Below are positions 8,066 through 23,100 of a stretch of DNA of 24,597 nt, piece by piece (within the stretch, counting starts at the first letter, position 1; each line of letters starts with the position of its first letter). The DNA comes from a virus. Made by a program: the position numbers and the translations under genes. The notes under the pieces were generated by a model, which was given only the letters and a program-made list of their open reading frames with translations, had not been told where the DNA came from and did no database searches. The stretch spans positions 1 through 24,597 of the IMG/VR virus record IMGVR_UViG_3300023196_002613; one strand, given 5' to 3'.

Positions 8066-9103
8066 TTACGCCAGTTCTTTCACGCCCGCTTCGATGACGC
8101 CGATCCAGCCGTTGTTCGCCACAAGCACGGCGGACCAGAAGCTGGCACCGACGTAACCGCGTTGACCGAACGGATCTTCCTTCGTCTTCTGCTTGTGCGG
8201 AATGTGCGTCAGGTCGAACGGGCTGTCGCCTTTCAGCGCGATATCGAACACGCCGTCCTCGCAACATACGATGTGCGGATACACGTCGACGTTGGCTGTG
8301 CCGACCAGACCCGTAGCGGCAACAGCAGCGCCGGCAGCGGGATACGGGGCCAGTTCGGGTGACACGATGAAGCGGAAGCGCTCACATGAGCCAATCTCGT
8401 TTTCATTCAGCATCGAGCGCTGACCGTATTTCGCAACAGGCACGAAGCCCGGCAGCTCGCGAATGTCCGGCTCGCAATCGGTGTGGCAGAACACCACGAA
8501 GCCCGCTTCGATCGCGGAGGTGTCGTATGCCGGTCCCGGGGCGAGGATCTTGTTTTTCATCTTGGCGTGGTTTGCCAAGAGAGTCTTCGCCATGTTGCGC
8601 AGGTTGTTCAGCGAGATCGCTTCGTCAACCGTGGGACGGGTGGTGCCACCTGCATACAGAACGTTCGTGGCGGCTTTCATGGAGCCATAACGAATCATCT
8701 CGCGCACAAGGCCCATGCGCTCGGCGGTCTGGATCTTCTGATCGCCCGGGATGTCGTCTTCATAGAGCTCGGCCGCTTTGTCCGTGTAGGCGTAGAGCAC
8801 GGCGTATTGCTGAATGGCGACGTTGACATCCTGATAGGTCAGGGTCGTTGCAACCGGAGTCACACCTTCAGACACCGCATGCGCGGCGGCCGTGACGGAC
8901 CAGCGGTTGATGGTGTTGGCATTTGTCGTGCTGCCACCGGTGGGGATCACGCGACGATAGGAGATGTTGTCGCCTTGACGACGGGGCATCTTCTTCATCG
9001 AGCAACCCATTGCAAGAACTTCGAACGGCTCAGCGTGAGCAAGCATCTCGCCCTTGATCTCGTTGATCCGGCCCTCTTGGGTCGTATATTTTTGAACAGT
9101 CAT
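8066..9103 (-). CDS. Major capsid protein, N4-gp56 type
   Basis: A 345-residue HK97-fold-type major head protein. The N-terminal helix region (INEIKGEMLAHAEPFEVLAM) is followed by PRRQGDNISYRRVIPTGG. The middle has VTPVATTLTYQDVNVAIQQY and YTDKAAELYEDD. The C-terminus ends with DPFGQRGYVGASFWSAVLV and NNGWIGVIEAGV, all hallmarks I recognise from the N4-gp56 family of capsid proteins. The length is normal for that family. The SD AAAGGA is 5 nt before ATG. It follows the scaffold gene, as expected for portal-scaffold-capsid order. Four hundred or so copies would form the icosahedral shell in this fold class; the exact number is not visible here. Confidence 0.9.
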   Translation of the reverse strand: MTVQKYTTQEGRINEIKGEMLAHAEPFEVLAMGCSMKKMPRRQGDNISYRRVIPTGGSTTNANTINRWSVTAAAHAVSEGVTPVATTLTYQDVNVAIQQYAVLYAYTDKAAELYEDDIPGDQKIQTAERMGLVREMIRYGSMKAATNVLYAGGTTRPTVDEAISLNNLRNMAKTLLANHAKMKNKILAPGPAYDTSAIEAGFVVFCHTDCEPDIRELPGFVPVAKYGQRSMLNENEIGSCERFRFIVSPELAPYPAAGAAVAATGLVGTANVDVYPHIVCCEDGVFDIALKGDSPFDLTHIPHKQKTKEDPFGQRGYVGASFWSAVLVANNGWIGVIEAGVKELA

Positions 9104-19009: not shown

Positions 19010-20371
19010 TTAATAACCCATGCCAGTGTCCGCCGGCTTCCAGTCACGGATGACCCGCGGTGCCTTTTCCTTCTGCCGGGTCAAGCCCGGGAACAGCTCA
19101 GCCATTGCCCAGACGAACGCATCGGCACGATTCGGGGAATTCTCACCGATATACCCGTTGGTTGTGAAGCCCCCCAGTTCTGACTCCAAAACAGGGAACA
19201 CACCGCAGAACCTGATCTTGCCCTGCTCGGTCAGCGCCGCAGCAGGCTCAGCGCGCACCACCTTGCCACGGGACGCGCTGACCAGCTTCGTGCGGACACC
19301 CTCGATTAACGCTGCGATGCGTGCCGTCTTGACCACGTGGTCGACCATGGCGCCGCCATAGTTCTTCTCAGCCACGATGATGTCCGCCTCGTGCCGCATG
19401 AACGCCTGCACCACAACGTTGCCCCACGTAGCAGGGCCAGCCTTGACCGAGCAGTCCTCGAGCACATAGGCGCGACCATCGGTGCCCAGACCAGCGACGA
19501 CGATGCCGATCTCGTCATTGCTCGCGTTGTCGATATCACCAGCACCGCTCGGATCGACAGCCACGACGACGCGGATCAGGTCAGGCGTCTCCTCGAGCCA
19601 GCGCTGCTTCTCGATGAGCTCATCACTCCACAGCGCACCCTCGGTCATGTCGGCGAACTTGCCCTCGAGGAAACGTGCGCGCTCTCGTGCCGGCAGCGCG
19701 GCCAGCTGCTTCAGGTATTCCGGCGGCAGATTCTCAACGTTGTCCGCAGGATTCATGAACAGGTGCGCGTAATTCTCCGGATCGGTGAGAGAACGCCCGG
19801 TGTCGGGCATCACGTGCTTGACGAACAGCTTGTAAGTCCAGTGCTGCTTGTTCGGTGGGTTCTCATCGTAGAACGCCTTCAGTCGCATCGGGCGCGTCGT
19901 GCCATCCTTCAGCACATAGTCGACCTTTTGCGCGAGACGCGTCATCGCCATGTTGCGCGATGCCCACGGTATCTGCGACGACTCGTTCATCAGGATCGTT
20001 GCGTATTCCTGCCCGAGAATTTTCTCTGTGCGATCACTCTCGTCGAGCCCGCCGAACCACACCTGCGAGTCGTTCTGCAGCCGCATATACCAGTCAGACT
20101 TGTCGATCTCGTAGTCGACCTCTGGGTAGCAGAGCTTCATCATCTTCGGCAGCGTATCGAGCACGACAGACGCCTTGACGTGATTGAAGCGCAGGCGCGT
20201 GATCAGGTGACGTGATGTCGGTGCCGCCATTGCGCGCACAGTCACTGCACGGCACGCTTCGAATGTTTTACCGCTACGTGATCCTCCGACAAGCAGCACG
20301 TTCATTGCAGGGCCGCCCATCAACGCACAGGCCTTCTGCTGGATTACGGTCGGCTTATAAGAGGTTGACAT
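19010..20371 (-). CDS. terL: Terminase large subunit (packaging ATPase/nuclease)
   Basis: A 453-residue large terminase that pumps DNA through the portal and cuts it. Walker A is GGSRSGKT at residues 29-36. Walker B-like ILMNE is at about 126-130, with Asn in place of the more common Asp before the catalytic Glu. ENPPN at 170-174 fits the coupling motif. The nuclease domain opens with VVVAVDPSG (Asp 273), continues with DEIGIVVAGLG and IIVAEKNYGG, and ends with the acidic NRADAFVWAMAEL. RARFLEGKFAD before the nuclease is typical of the family. ATG 20371 lies inside the TerS end (17-base overlap), which supports coupled expression. Length is normal. TerL with TerS, portal and scaffold gives a complete packaging set. 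Confidence 0.93.
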   Translation of the reverse strand: MSTSYKPTVIQQKACALMGGPAMNVLLVGGSRSGKTFEACRAVTVRAMAAPTSRHLITRLRFNHVKASVVLDTLPKMMKLCYPEVDYEIDKSDWYMRLQNDSQVWFGGLDESDRTEKILGQEYATILMNESSQIPWASRNMAMTRLAQKVDYVLKDGTTRPMRLKAFYDENPPNKQHWTYKLFVKHVMPDTGRSLTDPENYAHLFMNPADNVENLPPEYLKQLAALPARERARFLEGKFADMTEGALWSDELIEKQRWLEETPDLIRVVVAVDPSGAGDIDNASNDEIGIVVAGLGTDGRAYVLEDCSVKAGPATWGNVVVQAFMRHEADIIVAEKNYGGAMVDHVVKTARIAALIEGVRTKLVSASRGKVVRAEPAAALTEQGKIRFCGVFPVLESELGGFTTNGYIGENSPNRADAFVWAMAELFPGLTRQKEKAPRVIRDWKPADTGMGY

Positions 20372-21192: not shown

Positions 21193-21221
21193 TTGACAGA
21201 CCACTTAGAACTAAGTAATAT
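21193..21221 (+). promoter_or_regulatory. Strong rightward (early) promoter
   Basis: A perfect -35 TTGACA (21193-21198), 17-bp spacer, and -10 TAATAT (21216-21221). Transcription should begin about 21228-21229 and read the small-gene block on the plus strand. The spacer contains a second palindrome. Confidence 0.8.
21203..21216. promoter_or_regulatory. Operator-like palindrome in rightward promoter spacer
   Basis: ACTTAG-AA-CTAAGT is a perfect 6-bp inverted repeat with a 2-bp centre. It lies between the -35 and -10 of the rightward promoter, a usual place for a phage repressor to act. It differs from the leftward palindrome, so two proteins may be involved. Confidence 0.5.
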
Positions 21222-21228
21222 TCGTTTC

Positions 21229-21459
21229 GTAGTAGGTAGTTTGGTTAGGGACTCCCAGCAGTTTGGACTCAAGGCCGCTCAGGTAAGACGGTCGCCCGAA
21301 ACCCCCGGTAGCAGACTTAAGTCGATGCGCTGATCTAGGCCACGCGATGGCAAGGCTCATCTGGTCGGGGGAGACACCAATAACCGGGAAACCCAACATT
21401 GACAAGCAACCAACCCTTCCGGTCCTACTACCTGAGCATCTTCCAACGAGGGTGCTCAG
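21229..21459 (+). ncRNA. Candidate structured leader RNA of the early operon
   Basis: The first 230 or so nt of the rightward transcript fold by hand into nested helices. A closing 8-bp stem pairs GTAGTAGG (21229-21236, at the predicted start) with CCTACTAC (21424-21431). Inside are TTGGTT/AACCAA (21241-21246 with 21408-21413), GGCCG/CGGTC (21273-21277 with 21289-21293), CCCG/CGGG (21295-21298 with 21385-21388), CCCCCG/CGGGGG (21302-21307 with 21366-21371), and an arm GATG-c-GCT/GGC-t-CATC (21324-21331 with 21354-21361). Immediately after the closing stem a 9-bp hairpin (21432-21440 with 21451-21459, loop of 10) sits just before the SD of the first gene. No gene with a good SD occupies the stretch. 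It may be a riboregulator, an antitermination RNA or a processed small RNA. I match it to no known class. Confidence 0.45.
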
Positions 21460-21483
21460 CTGTTCAACACTACGGAGGTTCAA

Positions 21484-21890: not shown

Positions 21891-22031
21891 ATACCACTGG
21901 AGCAATTTCAGTCCACGCTCACAGGGAAGCACGTTCACTGGGTCAAGCAGCTGAACGTCGGCCAGTCCATCGTTCTCAAAAAGAATGCGGGCTCGAACGT
22001 TGTTGAGGTCGTTATCGACCGCATCGAATAA
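21891..22031 (+). CDS. 46-aa small protein with apparent ATA start
   Basis: An open frame of 46 codons begins at ATA, 6 nt after a good SD (AGGAG, 21880-21884), with an in-frame TAG just before it at 21879-21881. The product reads (I/M)PLEQFQSTLTGKHVHWVK, then VGQSIVLKKNAGSNVVEVV and IDRIE. That is a normal, compact beta-strand-like protein rather than random sequence, and it fills the gap exactly up to the first two-hairpin element. No ATG, GTG or TTG is available at the start. ATA may be a rare real initiation codon, or a mutated ATG that has weakened or killed the gene, or a base error. Confidence 0.6.
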   Translation: MPLEQFQSTLTGKHVHWVKQLNVGQSIVLKKNAGSNVVEVVIDRIE

Positions 22032-22042
22032 AGCCCAGCGTC

Positions 22043-22078
22043 GTGCCCCACGGGGCACCGCGATGCGCTTTTGCATCG
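22043..22078 (+). ncRNA. Two-hairpin RNA element, copy 1
   Basis: Eleven nt after the preceding stop, GTGCCCC (22043-22049) pairs with GGGGCAC (22052-22058). After 2 nt, CGATGC (22061-22066) pairs with GCATCG (22073-22078) around a 6-nt loop GCTTTT. Six nt later comes GGAG. The spacing is the same as in copies 2 and 3, while stem 1 differs completely in sequence and stem 2 has a compensatory C-G to T-A change. Confidence 0.65.
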
Positions 22079-22094
22079 ATCAACGGAGAATGAC

Positions 22095-22388
22095 ATGAGC
22101 AAGCAATCAATCGCACGTGACTGTGACGCACTGGGTGAGCTTCTGGCCGATCAGGCTGATCTGAAAAAACAGATCGACAAGATCAAGGCTCACCTGAAGG
22201 CCGAGGGTGTCGCCGCATACGAGGGTGAGCTGTTCCGCGTCGTGGTATCTGAGTCGGTCAGCTACAGGCTCGACATGGATGCGGTGCGCGCCAAGCTGAG
22301 CGCACAGTTCATCACCGCCAATCAGCAGCGCTGCGTTGCCATCAACGTGAAGTGCAGCGCACGTAACAACGAGGCGCTGGCGGCGTAG
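22095..22388 (+). CDS. 97-aa coiled-coil phage protein
   Basis: A 97-residue protein. Residues 10-40 are a charged coiled coil (LGELLADQADLKKQIDKIKA), followed by AYEGELFRVVVSESVSYRLD and DAVRAKLSAQFITANQQRCV. This pattern (short coiled coil, a 'GxxFRVxVS' strand pair, then 'VRAKLS..FI') recurs in small proteins of early regions in many phages, with no assigned function. I chose ATG 22095 (GGAG 6 nt upstream) over an in-frame TTG at 22071, which lies inside the hairpin. It follows the first two-hairpin element. Confidence 0.75.
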   Translation: MSKQSIARDCDALGELLADQADLKKQIDKIKAHLKAEGVAAYEGELFRVVVSESVSYRLDMDAVRAKLSAQFITANQQRCVAINVKCSARNNEALAA

Positions 22389-22446
22389 CACGCAGCAACC
22401 TGCATCCGTCACTGGGTGCAGTGTGATGCGCTGTTGCATCAATCAA
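22383..22446. repeat. 64-bp perfect intergenic repeat, copy 1 (partner 22838-22901)
   Basis: Identical over 64 bp to 22838-22901, 455 bp away. It begins just inside the preceding gene, includes the TAG stop and the whole two-hairpin element, and ends just before the SD. The pair brackets the 128-aa gene as a cassette. Confidence 0.93.
22400..22441 (+). ncRNA. Two-hairpin RNA element, copy 2
   Basis: CTGCATCC (22400-22407) pairs with GGGTGCAG (22414-22421) with one G-U. After 2 nt, TGATGC (22424-22429) pairs with GCATCA (22436-22441) around GCTGTT. Stop-to-stem distance is 11 nt and stem-to-GGAG distance is 6 nt, the same as copy 1. Confidence 0.7.
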
Positions 22447-22456
22447 TGGAGGTTAT

Positions 22457-22843
22457 ATGCCACGAGTCCTACTCAACGCACCAGAGCTCAAAATCGACAA
22501 GGTGCTGTTCAAGGATCGCCCGATGCCGCCACACTGCAAGCTCGAGCGGCGCATCGTCTTCAACCTGCTGAACCATCTACACAAGGCTGGCTTCAACGTT
22601 CAGCACACGTTTGACGGTGAGCAGTTCGAGGTTGTCACCACACCGACGGAAGCAATGGAATTCATATTCAACCTCGATGAAGTGTCGGTGCGGTTTCGCA
22701 AACCGGGTTTCAAACCGGAACATGGCGTCCTGCTGGTGCTGGGCAATGACATCGACGTTATTGCAGACTGGAATTACACCGAGGGTGACCCGGACGGGTT
22801 TGACGCAGCGATGAATGCTTTCGACGCGGAGGATTACGCGTAG
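22457..22843 (+). CDS. 128-aa unknown phage protein
   Basis: A 128-residue soluble protein. A helical N-terminal half (KLERRIVFNLLNHLHKAGFN) is followed by a beta-rich half (GEQFEVVTTPTEAMEFIFNL, VSVRFRKPG, HGVLLVLGNDIDVIADWNYT) and an acidic end (EGDPDGFDAAMNAFDAEDYA). I recall similar unassigned proteins in other phages but know no function. The SD is GGAGG, 4-5 nt before ATG. The gene is flanked on both sides by the 64-bp repeat and its two-hairpin element, so it could be gained, lost or duplicated as one unit. Confidence 0.75.
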   Translation: MPRVLLNAPELKIDKVLFKDRPMPPHCKLERRIVFNLLNHLHKAGFNVQHTFDGEQFEVVTTPTEAMEFIFNLDEVSVRFRKPGFKPEHGVLLVLGNDIDVIADWNYTEGDPDGFDAAMNAFDAEDYA

Positions 22844-22901
22844 CACGCAGCAACCTGCATCCGTCACTGGGTGCAGTGTGATGCGCTGTTGCATCAATCA
22901 A
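22838..22901. repeat. 64-bp perfect intergenic repeat, copy 2 (partner 22383-22446)
   Basis: Identical to 22383-22446. It includes the last base pairs and TAG stop of the 128-aa gene and the full two-hairpin element; the two sequences diverge directly outside the 64 bp. Confidence 0.93.
22855..22896 (+). ncRNA. Two-hairpin RNA element, copy 3
   Basis: Same pairing as copy 2: 22855-22862 with 22869-22876, then 22879-22884 with 22891-22896. It is followed after 6 nt by GGAG and the ATG at 22915. Confidence 0.7.
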
Positions 22902-22914
22902 CGGAGATTTAAAC

Positions 22915-23100
22915 ATGAGCGCAACACGTAAAAGTTTTCCCGGCTACCCGAATGTCAAAGCCGGCTGGGTGCACACCGATCGATACGGTGAGGTGAAGCT
23001 GGTCGAGGTCAACGAAACCAGCGACGGGTTCCTGATCGGCTCAGCAGTTACACGATCCGGTGAGCACGTATTCAACCTGTTCATCGGGAGGGCGCAATGA
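22915..23100 (+). CDS. 61-aa unknown protein, start of the coupled gene chain
   Basis: A 61-residue small beta-rich protein (NVKAGWVHTDRYGEVKLVEV, SDGFLIGSAVTRSGEHVFNL). No recognised domain. GGAG lies 8 nt before ATG, right after copy 3 of the two-hairpin element. From here every gene to the window edge starts inside the stop of the previous one by ATGA. The stop of this gene overlaps the next ATG at 23097. Confidence 0.7.
   Translation: MSATRKSFPGYPNVKAGWVHTDRYGEVKLVEVNETSDGFLIGSAVTRSGEHVFNLFIGRAQ

Follow-up and report, generated by a model that had tools for sequence, protein, structure and literature searches.

The window, a 24.6-kb virus record (24,597 nucleotides), belongs to a tailed phage whose portal and adaptor proteins are of the SU10 type. 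The minus strand carries the structural genes, and from ~21.2 kb onward the plus strand carries a small-gene operon. Nearly all junctions between the operon genes are 4-nt overlaps. Apart from one 9-nt junction, only three gaps (63, 68 and 71 nt) depart from this pattern; they are the sole operon gaps longer than 9 nt and carry the RNA element described here (Table 1). As the record is a fragment, further copies of the element may be missing from it.

Table 1. Features of the small-gene operon and of the three element copies in the window
Feature	Position	Strand	Details
Promoter-like site TTGACA-17-TAATAT	21193..21221	+	sole plus-strand candidate of the operon; consensus match only
Copy 1, whole element	22029..22097	+	stop TAA (22029-22031) to ATG of the next gene (22095-22097); matched by model R3, built without window sequence
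Copy 1, 5' pseudoknot strand AAAGC	22030..22034	+	overlaps the stop codon; pairs with GCTTT (22067-22071) of the P2 loop, 5 Watson-Crick pairs, family column
Copy 1, possible lower P1 pairs	GCG 22038-22040 with CGC 22059-22061	+	
Copy 1, hairpin P1	22043..22058	+	GTGCCC / CACG loop / GGGCAC
Copy 1, hairpin P2	22062..22077	+	GATGC / GCTTTT loop / GCATC; extended by C22061-G22078
Copy 1, Shine-Dalgarno GGAG	22085..22088	+	
Copy 2, whole element	22386..22459	+	stop TAG (22386-22388) to ATG (22457-22459); matched by R3
Copy 2, candidate 5' pseudoknot strands for loop GCTGT	22385..22396	+	two registers possible
Copy 2, first candidate strand GTAGC	22385-22389	+	overlaps the stop codon; 2 G-U
Copy 2, second candidate strand GCAGC	22392-22396	+	1 G-U
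Copy 2, hairpin P1	22400..22421	+	CTGCATCC / GTCACT loop / GGGTGCAG
Copy 2, hairpin P2	22425..22440	+	GATGC / GCTGTT loop / GCATC; extended by T22424-A22441
Copy 2, Shine-Dalgarno GGAG	22448..22451	+	
Copy 3, whole element	22841..22917	+	stop TAG (22841-22843) to ATG (22915-22917); matched by R3
Copy 3, hairpin P1	22855..22876	+	
Copy 3, hairpin P2	22880..22895	+	
Copy 3, Shine-Dalgarno GGAG	22903..22906	+	8 nt before ATG

Several other features of the window were recorded. A noncoding leader of ~260 nt (21222-21483) with an ordinary folding energy (z -0.18) follows the only strong promoter-like site. Within it, the leader of the first operon gene (21414-21482) has a 12-bp stem and then a Shine-Dalgarno (SD) sequence but no P2, and is the fourth-best match in the window to the covariance model R3 described below (10.3 bits, E 0.72). 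It may be a degenerate fourth copy, but we did not accept it as one, as the likeness is not significant once the SD is left out. An open reading frame (ORF) between two operon genes (21891-22031) has the SD GGAG six bases before ATA and lacks an ATG, GTG or TTG start, so that either a rare start codon or a broken gene is involved. The gene behind copy 2 (22457-22843, phrog_4158) has ~48% identity to Pseudomonas phage genes, and its counterpart in Phobos and PspYZU01 forms the C-terminal part of a longer protein. None of the three genes behind the copies has a Pfam match. The large terminase (19010-20371) and the capsid module (8066-9103) have different relatives: long contigs with a similar capsid have no similar terminase, and contigs with a similar terminase have, except for single weak matches, none of the other structural genes.

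The initial annotation had reported the same two-hairpin layout in three consecutive gaps, and a naive scan for two hairpins, an SD and a start finds exactly these three sites on the plus strand, with 0.4 expected in shuffled sequences. All three sites are real, but copies 2 and 3 form a 72-nt repeat with 97% identity and count as one observation, so the window alone provides only two independent ones. The geometry had been called fixed. The order of the parts is indeed the same, and P2 is followed by the SD after 7 nt and by the ATG after 16-19 nt, but the spacing from GGAG to ATG differs (6, 5 and 8 nt in copies 1 to 3), as does P1, with 6 bp and a 4-nt loop in copy 1 and 8 bp and a 6-nt loop in copies 2 and 3. 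Stem 1 of copy 1 was also said to share no sequence with that of the other two copies. Both versions pair, but the divergence was overstated, since the arms do share sequence when aligned by structure (GTGC-CCC/GGG-GCAC against CTGCATCC/GGGTGCAG); the changes are a basal G-C to C-G flip, one A-U pair missing in both arms, and a U-G pair replaced by C-G. Shuffles or background segments have a 6-bp stem directly next to stem 2, as in copy 1, in ~3-4% of cases, and the single-sequence folding energies of the copies have z scores of -1.1 to -1.9. We found no promoter at the three window elements and no plus-strand intrinsic terminator (GC stem plus U run). Sequestration of the SD appears only in the predicted fold of copy 3 and is not conserved. 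Taken by itself, the window makes a weak-to-middling case, and it is the homologues that decide it.

An exact 21-base pattern had no match, and a looser DNA pattern (P2, spacer and SD) was then used. It matched one unrelated phage, represented by three contigs (L163, L165 and L166), while its other matches looked like chance and were rejected. This phage carries two elements, the second not selected by the pattern, with the layout of stop, 11 nt, 8-bp stem, 2 nt, GATGC/GCATC, SD and ATG. Relatives collected via its CobS-like ATPase (80 loci) contain many more elements, located among small genes upstream of the CobS gene in the loci examined. Searches with covariance models R2 and then R3, the latter built without any window sequence, yielded variants with AGTGC/GCACT and other changes. 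In a 1.32-Mb search R3 ranks the three window copies first, with E-values (2.4e-6, 2.7e-5 and 1.1e-4; 4.4e-8 to 2e-6 on the window alone with filters off) that are rough owing to short calibration but with a clear ranking, the next matches (E 0.16 and worse) being bacterial sites picked earlier by the pattern. In all, ~85 further instances (77 distinct) were found in uncultivated phages sharing no detected protein with the window phage. Contigs L162-L169, among them those of the L163 phage, encode no relative of any window protein, and 19 CobS contigs encode no relative of the window capsid; nor are the genes that follow the window copies related to the genes that follow the other copies. This shows that the RNA is common to phages sharing no detected protein. 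No Rfam 15 family reaches its gathering score or gives a meaningful sub-threshold match, and the element is a previously uncatalogued RNA family with respect to Rfam and the open-access literature, a description in a closed journal being possible.

Searches outside the CobS phages gave little. Relatives of the window capsid, terminase and TerS (L003-L161) have conserved structural genes and no element. No viral relatives came from protein scans for the genes that follow copies 1 and 2, and the Pseudomonas phages carrying the gene behind copy 2 have no element. A match of model R1 in L146 was rejected as lying within a 1317-aa ORF. Seven pattern matches in bacterial genomes scored E 0.16 at best with the model and were also rejected; at E 0.001 under stricter filters, 299 genomes from one phylum had none. 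Cultured phages with CobS, SprT-like or DUF7417 genes had nothing beyond a weak match in Limnohabitans phage DC33 (E 0.023), rejected because it is inside an ORF and has no P1. GenBank places this 39-kb genome (PQ492659.1, L260) in Inoviridae, a misfit with its size and gene layout. In addition, two CobS phages carry the Betaproteobacteria-1 RNA (RF02932) on the minus strand (L219 10275-10390 and L171 15058-15179), a hint of betaproteobacterial hosts.

Across the family, P1 is very variable in sequence and strongly covarying, and P2 is GATGC/GCATC or also AGTGC/GCACT. In a structure-free MAFFT alignment of 29 instances, covariation is 0.405, compared with 0.136 in shuffled alignments (0 of 500 reaching it) and at most 0.121 when the pairing is slid. 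All of this signal comes from P1, because P2 had been selected by regular expression and was unable to vary. The R3 alignment of 77 distinct rows has 95.3% of its cells paired and two-sided changes in 14 of 17 pairs, with covariation of 0.567 against 0.167 shuffled and 0.147 for the best slid pairing; such later alignments were fitted to the structure and have rows related to each other, so the MAFFT result and the window test bear the argument. In P1 and P2 together, G-U pairs far outnumber A-C mismatches (103 against 6), which indicates that the RNA in the sense of the genes is conserved and speaks against a DNA cruciform. The proposal that the RNA fold is kept through compensatory changes is borne out by this covariation. 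Homologues without paired covariation, named beforehand as evidence against the fold, were looked for, and those found do covary in pairs. In some variants (L196 1195-1285, L198 2292-2381 and L200 6937-7027) an extra small hairpin is inserted in the P2 loop.

The initial annotation missed a third pairing. The P2 loop is complementary to a strand at a nearly fixed distance 5' of P1, and strand and loop change together: GAGATT/AATCTC, GAAATT/AATTTC, GGGATT/AATCCC and GACATT/AATGTC in some instances, and AAGAC/GTCTT, AAAAC/GTTTT, AGGGT/ACCCT and others elsewhere. In register, 86% of the pseudoknot cells are paired, compared with 60% or less for other slides and with a mean of 65% and a maximum of 72% among 2000 permuted loops. 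The covariance model contains no information on this pairing. The loop group GCCTT has one A-C mismatch in the pseudoknot. Among the window copies, the pseudoknot is clean in copy 1, with five Watson-Crick pairs, and ambiguous in copies 2 and 3, which can form five pairs including one or two G-U in either of two possible registers. The 11 nt before stem 1 are more than a spacer, as together with the stop codon they house the 5' strand of this pseudoknot. The fold is an H-type pseudoknot with an inserted hairpin, and covariation shows P1, P2 and the loop-strand pairing alike. A local hairpin of at least 5 bp could compete for the pseudoknot strand in 13 of the 42 distinct rows (2.4 in shuffles); we rejected it as a family feature, as it occurs in only about a third of the distinct rows and is absent in copy 1. 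In L193 1965-2042, L219 1377-1452 and their relatives the strand can also form a local hairpin, such as GAGATTTAATCTC, and this alternative fold could act as a switch in that subgroup.

The element lies at a short and restricted distance from a start codon. P2 is followed by 4-10 nt, GGAG(G) and a start codon, with 14-23 nt from the end of P2 to the start codon in nearly all copies. Since the SD was built into the first pattern and the models, its association with the element is inflated in those sets. A search that did not require an SD gave 54 P1+P2 sites, of which 45 have both SD and start within 35 nt; of the other nine, no fewer than two (L172 and L188) are genuine elements whose SD is unusual or distant. 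For 20 of the 64 distinct instances with a detectable upstream ORF, the end of that ORF falls at element position 4-5. This peak, much the sharpest, includes window copies 2 and 3; the TAA of copy 1 is also at position 5, behind the ORF without a standard start codon. In many intergenic copies the stop codon therefore overlaps the 5' pseudoknot strand, while leader-type copies have no upstream stop there. Of 33 tested contigs, 26 contain the element one to three times, the third match in one of these being the reverse strand of its first. The 86 downstream ORFs encode 33-150 aa and fall into 30 unrelated families, and this makes the element a portable 5' module rather than the operator of one gene. 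Between P2 and the SD the stable hairpins give way to an A/U-rich single-stranded spacer, and column frequencies reveal few conserved unpaired bases besides the SD.

From these features we infer a function at translation initiation. The element is probably a cis-acting translation-initiation or insulator module placed between a stop codon and the SD of the following gene. Translational regulation had already been raised as an alternative on account of the location directly before the SD, and the location does matter. The folded knot of P1, P2 and pseudoknot would leave the SD single-stranded just outside the fold and separate the downstream gene from its neighbor, so that the downstream ribosome site would stay insulated when the upstream gene is not translated. 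A ribosome terminating on the upstream gene would cover the 5' pseudoknot strand and have to open the pseudoknot, and upstream translation could thus tune downstream initiation. As a portable 5' module, the element would travel with, or receive, small early genes. The genes behind the element are unrelated and change while the element stays, which is the behavior of a general part rather than of an operator for one gene product. Since leader-type copies have no upstream stop, ribosome sensing is not general and not the whole story, and as the SD is not sequestered, a simple on/off switch is not evident. In a more specific version, put forward tentatively and with less than even confidence, the pseudoknot across the stop and ribosome site would open whenever a ribosome terminates, and in this way sense upstream translation and govern initiation downstream; it would be a structural alternative to coupling by 4-nt overlaps that wires newly acquired early genes into the operons of unrelated phages.

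The first rival, which we judge rather unlikely, is that the pseudoknot is a site recognized by a single protein of phage or host origin, which would regulate the translation of early genes in general and block or help initiation on all carrier genes. The conserved P2 core and the location beside the SD are consistent with this, T4 gp32 recognizes its own leader pseudoknot (PMC3014915), and one element before 30 gene families would make a regulon. However, no candidate protein common to the window phage and the CobS phages was found, and with P1 very variable and P2 and its loop changing too, little is left for sequence-specific recognition. Processing or stability is somewhat harder to uphold, and we consider it doubtful. 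An RNase would cut the A/U-rich spacer between P2 and the SD, and the knot would guard the upstream 3' end or mark the new downstream 5' end. A typical RNase III site would need longer stems than P1 and P2, and neither the tight distance to the SD and start codon nor the overlap of pseudoknot and stop codon is explained in this way. The combination of stable hairpins with an A/U-rich single-stranded spacer does fit a processing site, and RNase E cuts T4 gene 32 mRNA next to its pseudoknot (PMC3014915).

A small-molecule riboswitch acting on translation is improbable. A pseudoknot before the SD and the competing local hairpin in part of the rows would suit one, but the scarcity of conserved unpaired bases apart from the SD, the absence of a common function among the downstream genes and the lack of any Rfam riboswitch match all argue against it. 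Still less probable, and already disfavored by the pairing data, is an element acting as DNA, either a recombination linker or a dyad operator with incidental hairpins: copies 2 and 3 are a recent 72-nt duplication with limits close to the gene borders, and the downstream genes are exchanged, but the G-U to A-C asymmetry and the fixed order and distance to SD and ATG oppose it, and a dyad operator has no use for a pseudoknot. The element may nevertheless serve as a linker in addition to its role as RNA. Least credible is an RNA of the put type, bound to RNA polymerase and preventing termination, as the initial annotation had suggested from the ~70-nt size, the two stem-loops with a short gap and the early operons, because the element is pseudoknotted, tied to start codons, present one to three times per phage, and not limited to promoter-proximal leaders, with up to three copies in consecutive gaps 0.8-1.7 kb past the promoter candidate, while in HK022 each early operon has a single promoter-proximal put (PMC9378689).

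With this module, uncultivated phage genomes gain an RNA family supported by covariation; most early accessory genes in these genomes are unexplained. The element marks early operons in contigs without gene homology, and R3 linked two phage groups sharing no detected protein. If the proposed role is true, phages plug interchangeable small genes into a dense operon via a generic translation-control part, which would also be a compact part for synthetic operons.

In comparison with known systems, the likeness to HK022 put is confined to a length of ~70 nt, two stem-loops close together and an occurrence in early phage transcripts. The put RNA binds the beta' zinc-binding domain of RNA polymerase and suppresses termination; it is near the promoter, one per operon, and not associated with starts, whereas the present element is tied to start codons and has three copies in the window. 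In HK022 each of the two early promoters is followed by a put site that acts on RNA polymerase (PMC9378689). The STAXI motif (RF01728) is also a phage- and plasmid-linked pseudoknot in several copies, but it forms tandem pseudoknot repeats near DNA-handling genes, in contrast to a single element between stop and SD with no Rfam match (PMC2864571). Like the operator of T4 gene 32, the present element is an H-type pseudoknot upstream of the ribosome site. The PeSL mobile regulatory cassettes of T4-type phages (Arbiol et al. 2010) are intergenic stem-loop cassettes that reportedly accompany the shuffling of small early genes and, unlike the present elements, are said to carry an early promoter; to our knowledge they have no pseudoknot.

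The closest parallels are found in two other phage elements. The T4-type gene 32 pseudoknot likewise precedes the ribosome binding site of a phage mRNA, has an A/U-rich stretch behind it and is associated with the control of translation; in 2010 the T4 gene 32 leader was called perhaps the only viral pseudoknot in translation autoregulation (PMC3014915). It serves one autoregulated gene from a leader 67 nt upstream of the start codon and has no inserted hairpin of the P1 type (PMC3014915), whereas the present element adjoins the SD, overlaps the preceding stop, contains an inserted hairpin and precedes 30 unrelated gene families. The start-associated sequences (SAS) and extended SAS (ESAS) of Cluster K mycobacteriophages are repeated, start-associated intergenic elements with inverted repeats at many non-structural genes of unrelated families (PMC3203893), and motifs like SAS also occur in Microbacterium phages (PMC7302621). 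According to their authors, who considered DNA-binding sites, the departures found among ESAS repeats give no support to an RNA pairing (PMC3203893); the ESAS of Adephagia contain SigA-like promoters (PMC11373665). In contrast, the present element pairs in 95% of cells with strong covariation and has no promoter seen, and the window copies (CGGAGAA, TGGAGGT and CGGAGAT) lack the 13-bp GGGATAGGAGCCC found at the ribosome site in SAS. The element thus resembles the T4 gene 32 pseudoknot in its fold and the Cluster K repeats in its distribution, and departs from each in a defining feature.
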